Positions 98-8,640 of a DNA stretch of 32,617 nucleotides are shown here, in pieces (position 1 is the stretch's first letter; the number at the start of each line of letters is the position of its first letter). Source of the DNA: Desulfurivibrionaceae bacterium (GTDB taxonomy: Bacteria > Desulfobacterota > Desulfobulbia > Desulfobulbales > UBA5123); the NCBI GenBank assembly GCA_030145325.1, contig JAQYVW010000035.1, forward strand, positions 1 to 32,617, in the 5' to 3' direction. A program made the translations under genes and the position numbers. Under the pieces are notes generated by a model. The model was not told the DNA's origin. It worked only from the letters and a program-made list of their open reading frames with translations, and made no database searches.

Positions 98-3000
98 ATG
101 GAATATTCAAGAATGAAAAGATCTATTTTGTCGCGGCGAAATGTTTGTGCGATTGTATTTTTGTTATTTGGCTTTTGGGGATTTTGTCCTGATTCTGTAG
201 TAGCGGATAACTCAGTGGAGAGTATTACCCAGGGGCAATACATTCAGAAGCTTGCAGAGAAGATACCTGGAAGTTCTTTGTTGCCTCCAGATGCAACCTC
301 GTTTGACTTACAGCAGCTCTATAATTTTGTTGTCAGTCGTCTCGAGTCACGTGGAATTATTATTGGATCCACGGCAGAGGCGGATACTCCTCTTACTCGT
401 AAAGACTTCATTAATATCACATATTCATTTTTGAGTGAAGCGCCACTTGCTTCAGATATGGAACGTAAATATTTTCTTAAAGAAAAGGGAATTGTTAATC
501 CTAATGATATAGGTATTTTTACTAGTTTTGAGGGTTTGGTGCGGGCCACCCGTTTTACGAGCAACGAAACTGTTGATGTGTCCAGCGCGGTTCCTGTTCT
601 CTTCAAAGATAAAATTGAAACGGATGAGGATTCTCGGGTTGTCTTGCGTTTTGATGACATGTCGGTGTTGACTCTTGGTGAAGAGAGTCTTGTCCTGATT
701 AATGAGATGTTATACGACCCGCAAAGTAAATCGCGGCAGACGGTTATAAATCTTGTCCGGGGCAAGTTACGGGTTAAGGCTGCCAAGATTTCCAGTGTCA
801 AAACCAATTTTGAAATACATACCCCCACTGCTGTAATCGGTGTTCGTGGCACTGAATTTTTAGTTGATGTCGATCGCAAGGGGCATACCAAGGTTATCAC
901 TTTAGAGGGCCTCGTGTCCATGAAGCCGCTGCCGAAGGTCAGGGAGAGGGCAAGTGGTCAGTCCGATCATCAAGCTGAGGGGCAAGAGGGTGAGGGTGAA
1001 CAGAGCGATGAGTCTGGAGGCGATGAAGGGCAAGGTGCCGACGTCGGTGGATCCGGTGACTCCTCTGGCGAAGGTGGTGAAATTTTGGTTGGGGCAAACG
1101 CTGGAGGGTCTGTTGGTGCCGATGGCGCCCTTGAACAGTTGGAATTGACGCAAGTTGATATTGATGCGGCGGTGCAACCAACCACCATGGTTAACCCGGT
1201 GGTCATTGATAATAATGGTAGTGTTGACTCTAGAGAAGTTGATGAATTGTTGTCAGGAGGCGGATTGGTCCCGACGATTGCTGGCCCCAACGATGAACCG
1301 CCAGAGGACGAACCGCCAGTGGATGAACCGCCAGTGGACGAACCGCCAGAGGTTTATCGGCCAGAGGTTAATCCTGGTGATTTGGATTCTGACGGTGATA
1401 GTTATTCAAATAATATAGATGTTTTTCCTTTTGATCCGTTGGAATGGGCAGACAGCGATGGTGATGGGGTGGGTGATAACGGTGATGCTTACCCTCAGGA
1501 TGCAACTCGTTGGCTCGCTTCTTCAATAGATATAAGCGAATTTGCAGCGAGTTTCCAGGAAGATCTTAGTACTGAGCTAAACGCATTGGGGATCGAAAGT
1601 TCCATGATTCTCTCTGCTAAGGAGAAGGTTTATCAAGAAGCTGGCTATAATCTTGCTGCTTTAGCTAATGACGACTGGAATTCCTATTTTGGTTCTGCGG
1701 TCAATGGCTCTTTCGGTGGTCTAGGTGAGGAGATGAACTTTAGTGATGATGATTACTCGCGTCACCCAATAGGATTTATCTTTCCCTTTTACGGTAATAC
1801 CTATGATGATCTATACGTCACTTCAAATGGTTGGATAGCGTTAACTAACTCCACAGAAACAACTGAGTATAGTTCGCTGTGGGAGTACTGGTTATACGAA
1901 GAATATAGAGATGAAACCACCGGTCAAATTGATGAACGTTGGAACCAATTGCTTGATAATAATTATGCAACCATCGCTCCCTTCGGAACTGACCTTGATC
2001 CACGTTACGGTGGCGAAGTTTTCATTGAAACAAGTGAGGATAACAATAAGTGGCGGGCACAATGGGTACGTTTACCTCACTATGGCGATAGCAATGCCAC
2101 GGAAAGCAGTTTTTCTCTAACCCTCTTTTCTGGAGGAGAGATTGCGTTCCTTTATGACGGTCTTAATGAATCGGAAGATGATTGGTTTAGTCTCTTAGTC
2201 GGAATTTCTCCTGGCGCAGACAGCGAGGGAGTGGCGCCGCCAACTTCTTATATCGATATTTCTGATTACTCGCCAAGTCAGCCTTTTGTCGGTGATCCCG
2301 GTGCGGCGATTTTTGAGGGTTTCTATAATGACGGGGATAGTGATTATGTCTATGATTTTGATCTTGACTATACCGCCGTACTTTTTGAACCATATTTGCT
2401 GAACGGTGCAGTTGGTTATACCATGACCCCGTTTTCTTCGGCTCAACTGGTCGAACCTGCCAATTTGGATGAAGCCTATGCGTTACGGCAAGGAGCTAAT
2501 CTTGCCGGTGCCGATGAAATTGCCGCTGGTTTTCTGCCCAGTCAATATGCTTACGGTCTCCAAGTTGGTGATTACATCAATCAGGAATTGTATGAAGCCA
2601 TTGATTCAAGTGAACTTCTTGCTTATGCGGTGCAGGTTGAGGAAGATGTTGTCAACCGTGAAGCATTGGCGACGGTTCGCGACCATGGTGATGAAATGTT
2701 CGCCAATGGTGAATGGAGTAGTCGTAACGAACTTTGGTATACCGTGAACAATGTTCTTGACTACGGCTCCATCCGGAAGCGTGATGCGGCGTTGGCCGAA
2801 ATTGCCGACGCCAAGGCGGGTAGGGTGTTGAAGGATGCCCACGGTAATTGGCTCCGTGTCCAGCAGTATCTATTCAGGCCTGATCCTAATACAATCCAGG
2901 TTGTGGATGTTAATCTGCGTGCTGCCGGCGCCGATGAGTTTGCTGGTTTGACGGTAATGGATTGGCGGACTCGTTTCACCTCTGTGGTTCCTGCCGGTAG

Positions 3001-3613
3001 TGATATCCTCACCTTGCCGTGGAGTGACTATCTCACCACCCAGGAGGTGGGTAGTGAGAGATCTGTCGCTAATGCGACCTCTTACGAGTTGAGTAGCATG
3101 TCCGTGAACTTCCGGCATGGAAGCGACAGTCTCACTGAGTCGAGAGGGTTTGATTCAACCTTAGCTGGTCGTCAGGTTCTTACTGCCGGGACTGAAGCCC
3201 TAGAAGTCAACGGGAAACTATTCGCTTACGACAGCTCGGTGGGTTCGGCCTCTACCTATCTGGTTGAAACCATTTCCGGAGAGTCCAATCTTCCCTTCCA
3301 TTACTATATCCGTGATGAAAATAACGATTACGGTTGTATAGATTTTTATGGTTTCGTTGTTGGTAATGCCCTTGATAGTTCCAGCACTGGCTTGATTACC
3401 GGCTACGAGTCTCTTGATATTAGTAATATCTGGGAGGCCCTGCTTGTCAATATGGCCGGAGGGGTTAATATCGGCAGCAATAATCTCGAGATTTATTTCG
3501 ATGAATATTACAGTGATCTTGGGCTTCTGAACCAACCCATCGATATTATTTATGTTCCTTTGCCGAGTATGGAATGGAAAACCCCGGCAGAAGCTTATCA
3601 GCCTCCTGGTTGA
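98..3613 (+). CDS. Secreted FecR-domain protein with TSP3-like calcium-binding segment
   Basis: Large exported protein of 1171 residues. I place the start at ATG 98 because GGAGGGAGAGA lies directly before it; an upstream in-frame ATG at 5 has no such site. Residues 1-37 read as a signal peptide (basic start, hydrophobic core, then VVADN). Residues about 165-290 form a FecR domain, with the hallmark TPTAVIGVRGTEFLVDV near 242. An acidic Gly/Ser-rich linker follows, then an EPPxD proline repeat (about 399-418) and a DSDGD...DSDGDGVGD segment (about 430-465) like thrombospondin type 3 calcium loops. I do not recognise the last 700 residues as a known domain. FecR domains in periplasmic proteins often work in envelope signalling or ligand sensing. 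The downstream outer-membrane barrel and CHASE2 cyclase suggest one signalling operon; this is inferred. No sigma factor or TonB receptor partner is present, so it is not a classical Fec regulator. Confidence 0.85.
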   Translation: MEYSRMKRSILSRRNVCAIVFLLFGFWGFCPDSVVADNSVESITQGQYIQKLAEKIPGSSLLPPDATSFDLQQLYNFVVSRLESRGIIIGSTAEADTPLTRKDFINITYSFLSEAPLASDMERKYFLKEKGIVNPNDIGIFTSFEGLVRATRFTSNETVDVSSAVPVLFKDKIETDEDSRVVLRFDDMSVLTLGEESLVLINEMLYDPQSKSRQTVINLVRGKLRVKAAKISSVKTNFEIHTPTAVIGVRGTEFLVDVDRKGHTKVITLEGLVSMKPLPKVRERASGQSDHQAEGQEGEGEQSDESGGDEGQGADVGGSGDSSGEGGEILVGANAGGSVGADGALEQLELTQVDIDAAVQPTTMVNPVVIDNNGSVDSREVDELLSGGGLVPTIAGPNDEPPEDEPPVDEPPVDEPPEVYRPEVNPGDLDSDGDSYSNNIDVFPFDPLEWADSDGDGVGDNGDAYPQDATRWLASSIDISEFAASFQEDLSTELNALGIESSMILSAKEKVYQEAGYNLAALANDDWNSYFGSAVNGSFGGLGEEMNFSDDDYSRHPIGFIFPFYGNTYDDLYVTSNGWIALTNSTETTEYSSLWEYWLYEEYRDETTGQIDERWNQLLDNNYATIAPFGTDLDPRYGGEVFIETSEDNNKWRAQWVRLPHYGDSNATESSFSLTLFSGGEIAFLYDGLNESEDDWFSLLVGISPGADSEGVAPPTSYIDISDYSPSQPFVGDPGAAIFEGFYNDGDSDYVYDFDLDYTAVLFEPYLLNGAVGYTMTPFSSAQLVEPANLDEAYALRQGANLAGADEIAAGFLPSQYAYGLQVGDYINQELYEAIDSSELLAYAVQVEEDVVNREALATVRDHGDEMFANGEWSSRNELWYTVNNVLDYGSIRKRDAALAEIADAKAGRVLKDAHGNWLRVQQYLFRPDPNTIQVVDVNLRAAGADEFAGLTVMDWRTRFTSVVPAGSDILTLPWSDYLTTQEVGSERSVANATSYELSSMSVNFRHGSDSLTESRGFDSTLAGRQVLTAGTEALEVNGKLFAYDSSVGSASTYLVETISGESNLPFHYYIRDENNDYGCIDFYGFVVGNALDSSSTGLITGYESLDISNIWEALLVNMAGGVNIGSNNLEIYFDEYYSDLGLLNQPIDIIYVPLPSMEWKTPAEAYQPPG
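1292..1351 (+). repeat. Four tandem 15-bp units encoding EPPxD linker
   Basis: Four near-identical 15-base units of the type GATGAACCGCCAGAG encode the linker DEPPE-DEPPV-DEPPV-DEPPE. Units differ only by GAT/GAC and GAG/GTG changes, and a degenerate fifth unit follows. The period is a multiple of three, so gain or loss of units would change linker length without breaking the frame. It joins the FecR domain to the calcium-loop segment. Confidence 0.85.
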
Positions 3614-3642: not shown

Positions 3643-3720
3643 ATGATGCTGAATCGGGAAGGAACGTTTTGGGTTTGTTTTTCGGGATTAAAATTTGCTA
3701 ACGGAATCATTCTGATATGA
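3643..3720 (+). CDS. Short leader ORF (25 codons) coupled to the outer-membrane protein gene
   Basis: An ORF of 25 residues starts at tandem ATGs (3643 and 3646) behind the best ribosome-binding site of this interval, AAAGGAGAG at 3632-3640. Its TGA (3718-3720) overlaps the ATG of the barrel gene at 3717 as ATGA. The barrel gene has no clear Shine-Dalgarno of its own, so translation of the leader could deliver ribosomes to it. The peptide begins MMLNREGTFW and resembles no family I know. The AGGAG may also pair with CTCCT at 3603-3607 at the end of the FecR gene, which would hide the site. Coupling is inferred from the arrangement; the peptide may have no function of its own. Confidence 0.5.
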   Translation: MMLNREGTFWVCFSGLKFANGIILI

Positions 3721-4997
3721 AAAATAATGCATGTTGTCGGGGAGGTTATTCAGTTTTGAAAAGTCTTACGGGAATTATGTGTTTGGGTCTGTTGCTTGCG
3801 GTGACGACCAATACCGTTCAGGCCAAGGATGAGGCGCAGGGTGGCGATGCTACCCCCGGCAAATTCGATTGGCTCCTTCAGGCCACTGGTTATCTTACTC
3901 ATTCCCATTTGATGGGGGCATCGCAAATTTTGGGTGGCAATGGTTCCTTGGTGGTGGCACCGGTTTATCAGTTCGATCAGAGCAAGGCTGTGATGCTCCT
4001 CTACAACGGTTCTTATCGGAAGTCAAAACAGATTTATGCTCAGGATGAAGGGCCTAAACTTTTCTCCGAAGATCAGAGTCATAGTGTTACGCCAACCTTC
4101 CGGTATGTCTGGTCGCCTAAGTTTACGATCAGTCCTTCAATATTCTACACCGAGGTGAGGACGAAGGAAACCTCAGCCGATAGCTGGGGTAACGGCCTTT
4201 ATAATTACCGGGATATTGGGGGGGGGGTAAACGGCGAGTATACCCTCAATTCCGACAAGGATGGAAAAGAACTCTTAACCATCGGTTTGCAGCGATATCG
4301 TCGCAAATACCCAAATTTTAGTTCTTTGGCGTCCATGGCCGGCATACCTTTTGAAGAGCGGGAAAAGGATTTTGATGGCACCTTGCTTGCGGCCTCTTAT
4401 GCAAAGATCCGTGCGGGTTGGGCTGCCAAGAGCTCTATTTCCATCCTTGATAAGAATTTCGTCGATAAGCAGGTGGAAACTTCCACCGGCGGGCGGACTG
4501 GTGACCGGCAACATGATTATGTCGCGACGCTGGGTGAGGAATTATCTTACCGCTTTAATGATGATCTAACTGGGTCTTTGCATTGTTCGGTGGCGTATAC
4601 CCAGAGTAATCAAAATCTTGCGGAAGGTTCATTCCCGATCATTACCTTTCATTCTGACTACTATGATTCTCTGGCCTTCACCATCAAGCCTGGTCTTTCT
4701 TACACCCAAAAGCTTGCCGACGAACGGAAAATTACCTACGTTGCGACCTATGGTTTGAGTAAGCTTCATTACTATGATCGGCGGGCTAAAAATGTCGCTG
4801 GTACGTTGCTGAGCGAGGAGGAAAACGATTGGACCCATATCCTCACTCTTAACGCGGTTTACGCTTTGGATAAACATTGGAATATCGGTGCCATTGCCGA
4901 GTACAACAAGGCTAGCTCCAACATGCGTGATGAGCAGGTGTATCGATATAATTATGAGATTTTAAATCTGTCTGCAGGTTTTTCATATCGTTATTAA
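3717..4997 (+). CDS. Outer-membrane beta-barrel protein, possibly phase variable
   Basis: Predicted 426-residue exported protein. The N-terminus carries a signal peptide with an unusually long, Cys-containing basic part, then the core MCLGLLLAVTTNTVQA and cleavage near AKDEA. The rest alternates polar and aromatic or hydrophobic residues with many Tyr, Asn and Gly, and ends in AGFSYRY, typical of the last strand of an outer-membrane barrel. I cannot assign a ligand. It sits between the FecR protein and the CHASE2 cyclase in the same direction, so the three probably form an operon spanning outer membrane, periplasm and inner membrane. Its ATG overlaps the stop of the leader ORF. A TTG at 3756, after GGGGAGG at 3738-3744, is an alternative start that would shorten the signal peptide. 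A run of ten G inside the gene is odd and may allow frameshift switching. Confidence 0.75.
   Translation: MKNNACCRGGYSVLKSLTGIMCLGLLLAVTTNTVQAKDEAQGGDATPGKFDWLLQATGYLTHSHLMGASQILGGNGSLVVAPVYQFDQSKAVMLLYNGSYRKSKQIYAQDEGPKLFSEDQSHSVTPTFRYVWSPKFTISPSIFYTEVRTKETSADSWGNGLYNYRDIGGGVNGEYTLNSDKDGKELLTIGLQRYRRKYPNFSSLASMAGIPFEEREKDFDGTLLAASYAKIRAGWAAKSSISILDKNFVDKQVETSTGGRTGDRQHDYVATLGEELSYRFNDDLTGSLHCSVAYTQSNQNLAEGSFPIITFHSDYYDSLAFTIKPGLSYTQKLADERKITYVATYGLSKLHYYDRRAKNVAGTLLSEEENDWTHILTLNAVYALDKHWNIGAIAEYNKASSNMRDEQVYRYNYEILNLSAGFSYRY
4218..4227 (+). repeat. Homopolymer of ten G inside the barrel gene
   Basis: Ten consecutive G residues encode Gly-Gly-Gly and the first base of the following Val, about 170 codons into the outer-membrane protein gene. 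In this copy the frame is intact. Gain or loss of one base would truncate the protein. Poly-G tracts of this length in surface-protein genes are known contingency loci in other bacteria; here switching is inferred. Confidence 0.9.
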
Positions 4998-5060: not shown

Positions 5061-7343
5061 ATGAAGTCTTTTATTAAGCTTAATCAATATTCAATTTTTG
5101 TAGTCGTCACCATCGCGGCTTTGATTCTCCCCTTTGTTGCGCCTAATTTCACCAGCCGTCTTGAATTGTTCGTTCAGGATCTCTATTTTAATCTGCGTGG
5201 TCCCATTACTCCTGGCGATGAGGTTGTTATCGCCACCATTGACGAGAAGAGTATTGACAAGCTTGGCCGTTGGCCTTGGCATCGCAATGTTATGGCCGAC
5301 CTTGCTGATAGCCTTAGCGATTATGATGTTAAGGTCTTTGGTTTTGATATTGTTTTTTCATCACCAGAAACTGTTGTCGGCGTTGAGCAGCTTCAGCAGG
5401 CTCGTCGCGCCCTTGCCCACGGTGCTGGTGTCGATGATTCTGTGCTCGCCTCTCTTGATCAGGCCGTTAGCGAGGTCGATACCGACCAGCGTTTTTATGA
5501 GTCCCTAAAGCATTCCCGCCGCGCCGTCCTTGGTTATTTCTTTCATTTTTCGCGCCAGGGGCTTGAGCATCTCTCCGAAGCTGATATGGCCGACTACCTG
5601 CGCGTAGTTGCCAAGTCTCGTTATTCAGGGATAAAGAAGGAGCCGGGGGCAAACCTTCGAGATTTGAGTTTGCGCACCGCCTATGCGGTTGAGAGTAATA
5701 TTGGTAAAATTGCTGCTGCCACCAAGAGGGCCGGCTACTTTAACTTCTACCCGGATGTTGATGGGTCGGTGCGAAGGGTGCCTTTACTGGTTAAGTATCG
5801 AGATATGGTGGAGAGGGAGGATGGTGATGACTACATCTTTCCTCCCCTCTCGCTTACGGTCCTAAGAAAGTATCTGAAGAGCGCTATCCTGATTTGGATT
5901 GACCCGGTGGGGGTTGAGAAGGTGGCGCTGATGGGGCTCAAGTCCATCGAAATTCCGACTAATCAGCGGGGTGAGATGCGGATTAACTATTACGGTCCCG
6001 GTAATACCTTTCCCCATTATTCCATCGTTGACATTCTGGAAAAGAAAATTCCGCCTCAACAGCTCAAGGGCAAGATTGTTCTTGTCGGCCCCACCGCAAC
6101 CGCCATTGAGGACTTGCGGGTAACTCCATTCGACAAGGTCTTTCCTGGGGTTGAGGTGCATGCAACGATTATAGATAATATTCTCCATGGCCGTGTTCTT
6201 TCCGATCCTAATTTCCCTTCGCTGTTGATTGATTTTCTTTCTGTCTTGGTTGTCGGTTTTTTCTTGTTGTGGGCGCTTTTGCGTCTTGGCCCGTTTGCGG
6301 GCGGAGCGGTTGTGCTTTCCACGGCCGCATTGATCATGGGTGGGCATTATTATCTTTTTAGCCAACGGCTGATGGTGTTGAATTCGGTACCCCCTCTTCT
6401 GGAGTTGTCTTTTGTGTCCCTGGCTCTGCCCGTCTATCGTTTTGTCCTCCAGGAGAAAGAAAAACGCTATATCCAGGGTGCTTTCAGTCAATATCTGTCG
6501 CCGACGGTTATCGAGCAGATCATTAAAAATCCTTCACTGCTGAAGCTTGGTGGTACTCGCAAAGAGATGACGGTTTTCTTCTCTGATATTGCTGGGTTTT
6601 CATCGGTTTCGGAAATACTTGACTCGCAAGCACTGGTCAAGCTTCTCAACGAATATCTCACCGCTATGACTGAGATAGTTCTTCACTACAATGGCACCAT
6701 TGATAAGTATGAAGGTGATGCTATTATCGCTTTTTTTGGTGCCCCCATGGATGATCCGGAGCACGCTAAAAAATGTTGCCTGATGGCTCTCGATATGGTG
6801 ACTAAACTTTCTGAGTTGCAGGATAAATGGGAGTCTGAGGGTCGCCCTCGGCTTAAGGTGCGGATGGGAATTAATACCGGCACCATGGTTGTTGGTAACA
6901 TGGGGTCCGATATGCGAATGGATTATACGGTCATGGGAGATTCCGTAAACCTTGCCGCACGTTTAGAGGGAGCCAATAAGGAGTATGGCACCGGGATAAT
7001 GATTAGTGAAAATACCTATAATTCATGTCGCAACGATGTTGAGGTGCGGGTCCTTGATTCAATTCGCGTAGTTGGTAAGAAAGAGGTTGTTGTTGTCTAT
7101 GAATTATTGGGATGTCAGGGGACGTTGACCGATAACCAACAGGAGTTGTTGGCCTTATATAATGACGGGCTCCGTTTGTATCGAGAGCGTGAGTGGCGAG
7201 GAGCGATGGATCTTTTTGCCCGCATTCTGGAAATCAACCATGACGATGGTCCTGCTCTCACCTATATGGAGCGTTGTTTGGATTATTTGATTAGGCCTCC
7301 AGGCAAAAACTGGGACGGGGTGTATGTCCTGAAAACTAAATAG
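5061..7343 (+). CDS. CHASE2-domain class III adenylyl cyclase
   Basis: Inner-membrane cyclase of 760 residues, expected to make cAMP from ATP. I chose ATG 5061, with AGGA five bases upstream; the GTG at 5025 has no ribosome-binding site. Residues 10-30 are a membrane segment, about 35-385 a periplasmic CHASE2 sensor domain, about 390-470 three membrane helices, and about 500-660 the catalytic domain. Metal-binding Asp509 (FSDIAGFS) and Asp553 (KYEGDAI) are present, as are transition-state Asn630 and Arg634 (DSVNLAARLEG). Lys549 and Thr623 occupy the purine-selecting positions and form the Lys/Thr pair of bacterial CyaC-type adenylyl cyclases. The last 70 residues are helical and TPR-like. No residue needed for a homodimeric cyclase appears to be missing. 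Its place after the FecR and barrel genes suggests that CHASE2 reads an envelope signal, but the ligand is unknown. Confidence 0.9.
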   Translation: MKSFIKLNQYSIFVVVTIAALILPFVAPNFTSRLELFVQDLYFNLRGPITPGDEVVIATIDEKSIDKLGRWPWHRNVMADLADSLSDYDVKVFGFDIVFSSPETVVGVEQLQQARRALAHGAGVDDSVLASLDQAVSEVDTDQRFYESLKHSRRAVLGYFFHFSRQGLEHLSEADMADYLRVVAKSRYSGIKKEPGANLRDLSLRTAYAVESNIGKIAAATKRAGYFNFYPDVDGSVRRVPLLVKYRDMVEREDGDDYIFPPLSLTVLRKYLKSAILIWIDPVGVEKVALMGLKSIEIPTNQRGEMRINYYGPGNTFPHYSIVDILEKKIPPQQLKGKIVLVGPTATAIEDLRVTPFDKVFPGVEVHATIIDNILHGRVLSDPNFPSLLIDFLSVLVVGFFLLWALLRLGPFAGGAVVLSTAALIMGGHYYLFSQRLMVLNSVPPLLELSFVSLALPVYRFVLQEKEKRYIQGAFSQYLSPTVIEQIIKNPSLLKLGGTRKEMTVFFSDIAGFSSVSEILDSQALVKLLNEYLTAMTEIVLHYNGTIDKYEGDAIIAFFGAPMDDPEHAKKCCLMALDMVTKLSELQDKWESEGRPRLKVRMGINTGTMVVGNMGSDMRMDYTVMGDSVNLAARLEGANKEYGTGIMISENTYNSCRNDVEVRVLDSIRVVGKKEVVVVYELLGCQGTLTDNQQELLALYNDGLRLYREREWRGAMDLFARILEINHDDGPALTYMERCLDYLIRPPGKNWDGVYVLKTK

Positions 7344-7350
7344 GTGGCTG

Positions 7351-7707
7351 ATGCGGTTAGGAGAATTTTTGGTTGCAAAAGATTTGGTCACCGTGGCAGA
7401 TGTTGAGCATGCCCTTGAGACCCAGAGGCAGACCAAGAAATTTTTGGGCTCTTTGGCTGTGGAAGTAGGTCTTCTTTCCCGGCTGGAAAATATTCAGATT
7501 ATTATGGAGCAACAGAAGAGTGGCGGCAGTTATGGGGAAGTGGCGCAAAGGCAGGGATTACTCACCAAACAACAGATTGAAGAATTGGTTGATTTTCAGG
7601 AAAATACCCGCCTATCCCTTGGCAAGGTGTTGGTGGCGGAAACTTCTTTAAGCAGGTTTGATCTTCTCATGACTCTGAAGGAATATGTGGAAAGGTATAA
7701 AAGCTGA
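7351..7707 (+). CDS. Stand-alone MshEN-like protein with four 29-residue repeats
   Basis: Small soluble protein of 118 residues, seven bases after the cyclase stop, with AGGTGG overlapping that stop. It consists of four units starting at residues 2, 31, 60 and 89, each 24 residues plus a 5-residue spacer. This is the spacing of the MshEN (GspE N-terminal) c-di-GMP-binding motif, which has paired 24-residue motifs with a 5-residue gap. Unit 1 keeps RLG at its start and Gln25 at its end; units 2 and 3 keep LG or YG, Gly-Leu-Leu and the final Gln. Units 2-4 lack the initial Arg/Lys, and unit 1 has Asp where Gly is usual, so nucleotide binding is uncertain. No ATPase domain follows, unlike GspE or MshE. 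Translation is probably linked to the cyclase, suggesting a regulatory partner or adaptor. Confidence 0.7.
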   Translation: MRLGEFLVAKDLVTVADVEHALETQRQTKKFLGSLAVEVGLLSRLENIQIIMEQQKSGGSYGEVAQRQGLLTKQQIEELVDFQENTRLSLGKVLVAETSLSRFDLLMTLKEYVERYKS

Positions 7708-7828: not shown

Positions 7829-8140
7829 ATGCTCCCCCAATTTTCAATCCGGGAACGAAAAAGATTCTGGACATTATTCAGCGTAATGCTGCTGGTTTTT
7901 TGTCTGTGGTTGTTTTTTGCGCCCAATGGTGTGGTTCGTTACTATCGGTTGCGTCAGGAAATCGCCGAGCTCAAGCAAGAGAATGAAATTCTTGAGCAAC
8001 AAAAGAGCTCCCTTGCCGAAGATATTGAGCGGCTTAAAACGGACCCTGCCTACCTTGAAGAGGTGACCAGGGATAAGTATGGGTTTATTCGTAAAAATGA
8101 GATGATTTTCGATTTTTCCAAGCGGCGGAAAAAGCATTGA
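7829..8140 (+). CDS. ftsB: FtsB/DivIC-family septum formation protein
   Basis: Protein of 103 residues with the bitopic FtsB/DivIC layout: short cytoplasmic N-terminus, one membrane helix (about 13-32, FWTLFSVMLLVFCLWLFF), then a heptad-type coiled coil rich in Glu, Gln and Leu (about 38-68), and the conserved tail DPAYLEEVTRDKYGFIRKNE. FtsB/DivIC works with FtsL and FtsQ/DivIB in the division complex. Length fits the family. The ATG has AAGG nine bases upstream. It lies about 120 bases after the MshEN-like gene with no terminator seen between them, so it may be co-transcribed with the signalling genes. That neighbourhood is unusual; ftsB is often found beside enolase or sugar-nucleotide genes. 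The family is clear, but whether it is ftsB or a DivIC paralogue is less certain. Confidence 0.8.
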   Translation: MLPQFSIRERKRFWTLFSVMLLVFCLWLFFAPNGVVRYYRLRQEIAELKQENEILEQQKSSLAEDIERLKTDPAYLEEVTRDKYGFIRKNEMIFDFSKRRKKH

Positions 8141-8226
8141 CGCGTCAGGTTGGCACGTGTTATCTCCAATGTGGTTAGTTGATCAGGTTGCTATATATCT
8201 TGCCTCTAAGAGATCAGGGAGACTAC

Positions 8227-8640
8227 ATGAATAACGATCATGCCGAGTCCGAAAGAAGAAAGGAGCAACGGTTCAAGGTTAATGAGCAGGCCATTGCTGT
8301 GCTTAAGGTCGGTAATAATTTTTCCAGGCTGGGGCGAATTGTTGATGTCAGCCTTAGTGGCCTTGCCTTCGATTACTTGTTGATGGATGGTGTACCTCAG
8401 CAATTGAAGCGAGATGATGAGGTTGGCGAGATATCCATGAATATCATTACCGAAGACGGGCATATGGTTTTGGTTGGTGCTGCTGTGCAACCGGTAAACG
8501 ACCGTCTTCTGCAGAGGGAAGAGCGATTTTTCGCTTCAGTTCCCACCAGTCGTTGCGCTGTTCATTTTAATTCTCTTTCCGCAGCTCAGGGTGAGCAGCT
8601 TGGGGAGTTTATTCTCCAGCGGGCGGTACTTAATTCCTGA
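8227..8640 (+). CDS. PilZ-domain protein, likely c-di-GMP effector
   Basis: Small soluble protein of 137 residues made almost entirely of one PilZ domain. The two c-di-GMP contact motifs are intact: RxxxR at Arg11-Arg15 (RKEQR) and DxSxxG at Asp40-Gly45 (DVSLSG). I use ATG 8227 with AGGGAG just upstream; an in-frame TTG at 8179 has no ribosome-binding site. No output domain is attached, so it would act by binding a partner. It is the last gene of the rightward block and is followed by an intrinsic terminator. It is close to the MshEN-like protein and the cyclase, which brings candidate c-di-GMP readouts next to a cAMP source. The domain call is firm; the partner is unknown. Confidence 0.85.
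   Translation: MNNDHAESERRKEQRFKVNEQAIAVLKVGNNFSRLGRIVDVSLSGLAFDYLLMDGVPQQLKRDDEVGEISMNIITEDGHMVLVGAAVQPVNDRLLQREERFFASVPTSRCAVHFNSLSAAQGEQLGEFILQRAVLNS

Follow-up and report, generated by a model that had tools for sequence, protein, structure and literature searches.

In Vibrio cholerae MshE, each motif of the MshEN domain supplies Arg1, Leu2, Gly3, Leu17, Leu21 and Gln24 to the contacts with c-di-GMP (PDB 5HTL; PMC5013675). Tandem MshEN-like motifs also occur in the T. thermophilus pilus ATPase PilF, in which GSPII-C comprises three consecutive motifs. Within PilF, GSPII-B has an affinity of 6 nM for c-di-GMP even with Lys and Leu at the Arg position (PMC11731258), while GSPII-A does not bind, and a Ser in the first position of the second motif eliminates binding in GSPII-A constructs (PMC12002112). 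The behavior of GSPII-A and GSPII-B thus indicates that sequence alone tells little about binding, and other MshEN domains that do not bind are also on record (PMC5013675). As fusions of adenylate/guanylate cyclases with MshEN, and (MshEN_N)2 forms, have already been reported (PMC5013675), a link between c-di-GMP and a cyclase is not wholly new.

The 118-aa protein described here is encoded in a window of 32,617 nucleotides, i.e., the whole stretch of DNA that was analyzed. It shares with MshE the 24-residue motif followed by a 5-residue spacer, as well as Gly3 and Gln24 in units 1 to 3, and with PilF the tandem arrangement of motifs. In contrast to MshE, it has four units instead of two, carries the first Arg in unit 1 only, as the initial annotation had stated, and has an Asn (Asn47) at a stacking position. 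In addition, the T2SSE ATPase domain, for which Pfam gave no match, and the MshEN_C subdomain are both absent, and the length of the protein is taken up by the four units, in agreement with the earlier description of a protein without ATPase. By their published description, the cyclase fusions and (MshEN_N)2 forms resemble this locus in combining a receptor with a cyclase and in the idea of a doubled MshEN_N, whereas here the receptor and the cyclase are separate genes in one operon.

A stand-alone protein of four MshEN-like units

The gene starts with ATG, and its product was matched in three stretches by the NCBIfam model NF053729 (MshE-related c-di-GMP domain) with 62.3 bits and an E-value of 2.8e-17 (cut-off 38 bits). 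The initial annotation had named a profile search as a check on MshEN membership, and the match came from NCBIfam and not from Pfam: PF05157 (MshEN) was unreported even at E 10, and the sole Pfam match, FumaraseC_C, remained at 18 bits below its cut-off of 32.5 and was rejected as a helical look-alike that also surfaced in the fold search. Pfam was therefore dropped as a membership test. A sequence search of the PDB returned PilF (E 7.9e-7), the best stretch aligning residues 2-77 of the window protein with the GSPII-C region, and MshE (E 0.0013).

Four 29-residue units (24+5) starting at residues 2, 31, 60 and 89 had been proposed, and this register was upheld. When the relaxed MshEN motif from the literature, with its 11 positions per unit, was used for scoring, the protein reached 36 out of 44 (Table 1), while 3000 shuffles of the same protein gave a mean of 21.2 and a maximum of 27. 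The spacing is exactly 29 throughout, and no rival register (periods 26-32, all offsets) came near this score. None of the four units has the full relaxed motif, unit 2 deviating at positions 1 and 17. Judged from the sequence, this weakens the claim of c-di-GMP binding but not the kinship with MshEN.

AlphaFold2, provided with 32 aligned homologues, predicted eight helices, two per unit, with a mean pLDDT of 91.8 and a pTM of 0.65, and given this pTM the relative placement of the units is uncertain. Predicted residues 29-86 (units 2 and 3) would form the four-helix bundle and matched MshE in complex with c-di-GMP (PDB 5HTL) with an rmsd of 1.4 and a Z of 11.8. The next matches were PilF GSPII-B (Z 8.9-10.5) and fumarase look-alikes (Z 8.6), and Z values should be read with caution where helical bundles are compared. 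The same core and architecture were predicted for a distant four-unit protein with 31% identity to that of the window (Z 11.9), and a search of a viral structure library gave no convincing match. Based on the profile match and the fold match of the predicted model, the protein is considered MshEN kin. Which pair of units forms the core is disputed: both AlphaFold2 models favor units 2+3 on MshE, while NF053729, applied to unit pairs alone, ranks 1+2 first (44.2 bits) before 3+4 (28.1 bits) and 2+3 (21.4 bits). A simple tandem of (1+2)(3+4) domains is favored by the profile scores and at odds with the AlphaFold2 matches over 2+3.

Table 1. Coordinates of the features in the window and of loci elsewhere that are mentioned in the text.
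Feature	Position	Strand	Basis or context
Stand-alone protein of four MshEN_N units	7351-7707	+	NF053729, motif register, AlphaFold2 model, dN/dS
Unit 1, RLGEFLVAKDLVTVADVEHALETQ	7354-7425	+	10/11 motif positions
Unit 2, FLGSLAVEVGLLSRLENIQIIMEQ	7441-7512	+	9/11 motif positions
Unit 3, SYGEVAQRQGLLTKQQIEELVDFQ	7528-7599	+	9/11 motif positions
Unit 4, SLGKVLVAETSLSRFDLLMTLKEY	7615-7686	+	8/11 motif positions
CHASE2 and class III adenylate cyclase, presumed partner	5061-7343	+	Pfam CHASE2 211.8 bits, Guanylate_cyc 96.3 bits
AGGTGG, putative ribosome-binding site that overlaps the stop codon of the cyclase	7342-7347	+	Sequence and junction
DivIC/FtsB-like gene	7829-8140		Pfam; downstream of the MshEN gene
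PilZ-domain protein with RxxxR (RKEQR) and DxSxxG (DVSLSG)	8224-8640	+	Pfam PilZ 28.3 bits, cut-off 22.5; motifs in the translation
Terminator-like site, strong	8668		Past the PilZ gene
Outer-membrane-like protein	3717-4997	+	Sub-threshold Pfam match only; upstream of the cyclase
Large FecR-domain protein	113-3613	+	Pfam; upstream of the cyclase
Other CHASE2 cyclase, own genome	L106:9155-11380
PilB-type ATPase, own genome (G000:C127)	L111:1426-3663	+	N-terminal MshEN and C-terminal cNMP-binding domain in one frame
Orthologue in G003 (L003)	G003:C21:7351-7701	-	In-frame TAG
Four-unit protein	L117:1435-1848		Between CheR and CheB genes
Four-unit protein and upstream twin in tandem	L115:1453-1839		Near CheD
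Four-unit protein with CheX domain	L116:1474-2340		Behind REC gene
Four-unit protein with REC and PAS	L072
Four-unit protein with J-domain-like N-terminus	L043:5967-6860	-	DnaJ 26.7 bits, just below the cut-off of 27.8

Linkage to one clade of CHASE2 cyclases

Pfam identified the neighboring gene as a CHASE2 protein with a class III cyclase domain, which confirmed that the MshEN protein lies beside a cyclase. The closest solved structure to its catalytic domain is that of P. aeruginosa CyaB (3r5g, E 2.5e-42). Aligned with CyaB, the class III adenylate cyclase set is complete, with roles as generally assigned in this class: the metal-binding Asp pair (FFSDI and EGD), the ATP-selecting Lys (IDK) and Asp (MDYT), and the catalytic Asn/Arg (NLAARLE). 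The gap between the cyclase stop codon and the ATG of the MshEN gene is 7 bp, a junction that suggests translational coupling of the two genes. The PilZ gene follows as the second gene 3' of the MshEN gene and is also found in the same-genus genome G002; with both motifs intact, its product is a candidate c-di-GMP receptor that looks better than the MshEN protein. FecR-like sequence also precedes another CHASE2 cyclase of the own genome (L106). Rfam reported no RNA family in the window.

Carriers of the MshEN orthologue and carriers of the orthologous CHASE2 cyclase are the same 4 of the 258 genomes of the class. In G002, G003 and G022, the orthologue (69, 57, and 42% identity, respectively) is located directly 3' of the cyclase, with gaps of 7, 2, and 145 bp, so that all four gaps fall within 2-145 bp. 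The same-genus relative is a Desulfobulbaceae MAG. Identity to the cyclase of the window amounts to 66% in G003 and 57% in G022, and the G002 contig contains the last 192 cyclase residues only, which are 79% identical. Next-best cyclases show about 40% identity or less, and the MshEN gene was absent near every one of these loci that was fetched. The naive odds of this coincidence are tiny; they have to be read with the fact that three of the four carriers belong to one family and are non-independent, while G022 represents another family of the same order. No match to either orthologue was found in the same-genus genome G001 (93% complete), and no four-unit protein adjoins the other three CHASE2 cyclase matches of the own genome. 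The expectation of linkage to cyclases elsewhere therefore held for the orthologues, all four of which are paired, and not for the majority of stand-alone four-unit proteins, which do not lie by cyclases. A general association of MshEN proteins with CHASE2 cyclases was likewise rejected, as all other fetched cyclase loci lack them and the nearest pair on the same contig elsewhere is about 40 kb apart. Linkage is limited to a single clade of CHASE2 cyclases that are orthologous to one another.

In the G003 orthologue, the codon for the conserved Gln25 is replaced by a single in-frame TAG, which, at a low contig coverage of 0.99 in this MAG, may be a sequencing error or a sign of decay. This stop codon would fit a frame that is not a gene or is a decaying remnant; such a reading is highly improbable for the window, where the repeat register is exact, given that the frame is unbroken in three genomes and that comparison with the G002 orthologue yielded a dN/dS of about 0.14 (dN 0.21, dS 1.44). 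This ratio indicates that purifying selection acts on the gene of the window.

Four-unit MshEN proteins recur in the order and in the phylum, where they are adjacent to or fused with modules of the chemotaxis, receiver, PAS and J-domain types (Table 1), and stand-alone forms were encountered in eight further genomes examined in the order. The other Desulfobacterota proteins (L034, L035, L037, L039, L041, L043, L072, L115, L116, and L117) have four units, as has the window protein, and those that were aligned are 22-33% identical to it, but their neighbors or fused domains differ. The proteins of the L043 type (about 300 aa) are apparently conserved throughout the order and adjoin a membrane protein of about 600 aa. 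No cyclase adjoins the chemotaxis-type clusters L115, L116 and L117 within the stretch seen. A stand-alone MshEN protein is thus not unusual in itself; the four-unit module is frequent in varied contexts and is therefore a general signaling part, which one lineage employs in partnership with the cyclase.

The occurrence of such proteins next to CheR/CheB, CheD, REC or unrelated genes would also be expected if the window protein were a c-di-GMP receptor or adaptor for an unrelated target, e.g., type IV pili, chemotaxis or the products of the downstream FtsB and PilZ genes, and merely shared the transcript of the cyclase. In the genus, the DivIC/FtsB-like and PilZ genes indeed come next, and the terminator-like site is positioned after PilZ. 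However, presence and absence of the gene track the cyclase exactly, and the cyclase stays constant while the genes further downstream, and the neighborhoods apart from the cyclase, differ in G003 and G022. We consider a mere sharing of the transcript unlikely.

Residues at the putative c-di-GMP site

Units 1 and 2 of the window protein retain most of the ligand-contacting residues, the equivalents being R2, L3, G4, V18, L22 and Q25 in unit 1 and F31, L32, G33, N47, I51 and Q54 in unit 2. The Gly at position 3 of units 1 to 4 and the Gln at position 24 of units 1 to 3 are kept in all four cyclase-linked proteins, G003 being counted by reading its TAG codon as Gln. In unit 3, G62, G69 and Q83 are unchanged across 32 homologues, and position 61 is Tyr in the cyclase-linked group and Phe in the remaining 28. 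Other positions deviate. Unit 1 has an Asp at motif position 10 where Gly is expected, and this Gly is lost in three of the four cyclase-linked proteins; position 1 of units 3 and 4 is mostly Ser or Pro in this group; the terminal, phosphate-binding Gln of unit 4 is replaced by Tyr or Phe family-wide where aligned; and in the G022 orthologue Lys, not Arg, opens unit 1. Asn47 (unit 2, position 17) sits at the site of the guanine-stacking Leu and is Asn in all four cyclase-linked proteins, while the 28 other aligned four-unit proteins have Val or Ile, and none has Asn.

Because PilF GSPII-B binds with Lys and Leu at the Arg position, loss of the Arg in units 2 to 4 is not decisive alone. More informative, in sequence terms, is the conserved Asn of unit 2. 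The residues may thus be read in both directions: a replacement at position 1 can be tolerated, Asn47 is an outlier and unit 4 lacks its Gln, and we therefore regard the chances for and against c-di-GMP binding as nearly balanced, with c-di-GMP a plausible ligand.

If binding was lost, the protein might serve the CHASE2 cyclase constitutively, as a helical scaffold or an activator, comparable to XpsE and PilF GSPII-A, which have the fold without binding. Such a degenerate adaptor would agree with the Asn47 that is restricted to the cyclase-linked proteins, with the Gly missing at position 10 of unit 1 in three of the four, with the prevalence of Ser or Pro at position 1 of units 3 and 4, as Ser at this position of the second motif does away with binding in PilF GSPII-A (PMC12002112), and with the documented non-binding MshEN domains (PMC5013675). 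Retention of Gly3 and Gln24 in the cyclase-linked proteins (with the G003 codon read as above) and the 6 nM binding by the Arg-less GSPII-B (PMC11731258) argue against it, and we regard this possibility as doubtful, if by no means negligible. Rather unlikely, in our view, is a separate c-di-GMP-sensing subunit that tunes the cyclase in trans, and so couples c-di-GMP to cAMP, with units 2 and 3 as its core, units 1 and 4 paired either mutually or across to a second protomer, a split cooperative site, and a specificity altered by Asn47.

A possible connection of c-di-GMP and cAMP

The most likely role of the protein is that of a dedicated regulatory partner of the upstream cyclase. This rests on the kinship, the register, the predicted fold, the cyclase residues, the operon geometry, the pairing in two families and the purifying selection. 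Cyclase and MshEN protein would be made from one operon, with translation probably coupled, and the small helical protein would dock on the portion of the membrane cyclase that lies in the cytoplasm. Binding of c-di-GMP between units 1 and 2 would then shift the docking contact and change the cAMP output. The physical interaction, c-di-GMP as the ligand and the direction of the effect are what we infer, and for this trans-acting mechanism as a whole we put the chances a little short of even.

Since the own genome yielded 31 GGDEF and 11 cNMP-binding matches, c-di-GMP and cAMP are both plausible messengers here. The PilB-type ATPase of the same genome, combining MshEN and cNMP-binding domains (Table 1), is possibly another point at which the two may meet. 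Both CHASE2 cyclases and four-unit MshEN proteins occur commonly in the lineage, for which our literature search found no study. If the partnership holds true, the pair would represent a compact and genetically separable link from c-di-GMP to cAMP. The finding also highlights a recurrent four-unit MshEN module outside the secretion ATPases, either as a stand-alone protein or with J-domain, REC, PAS or CheX partners.
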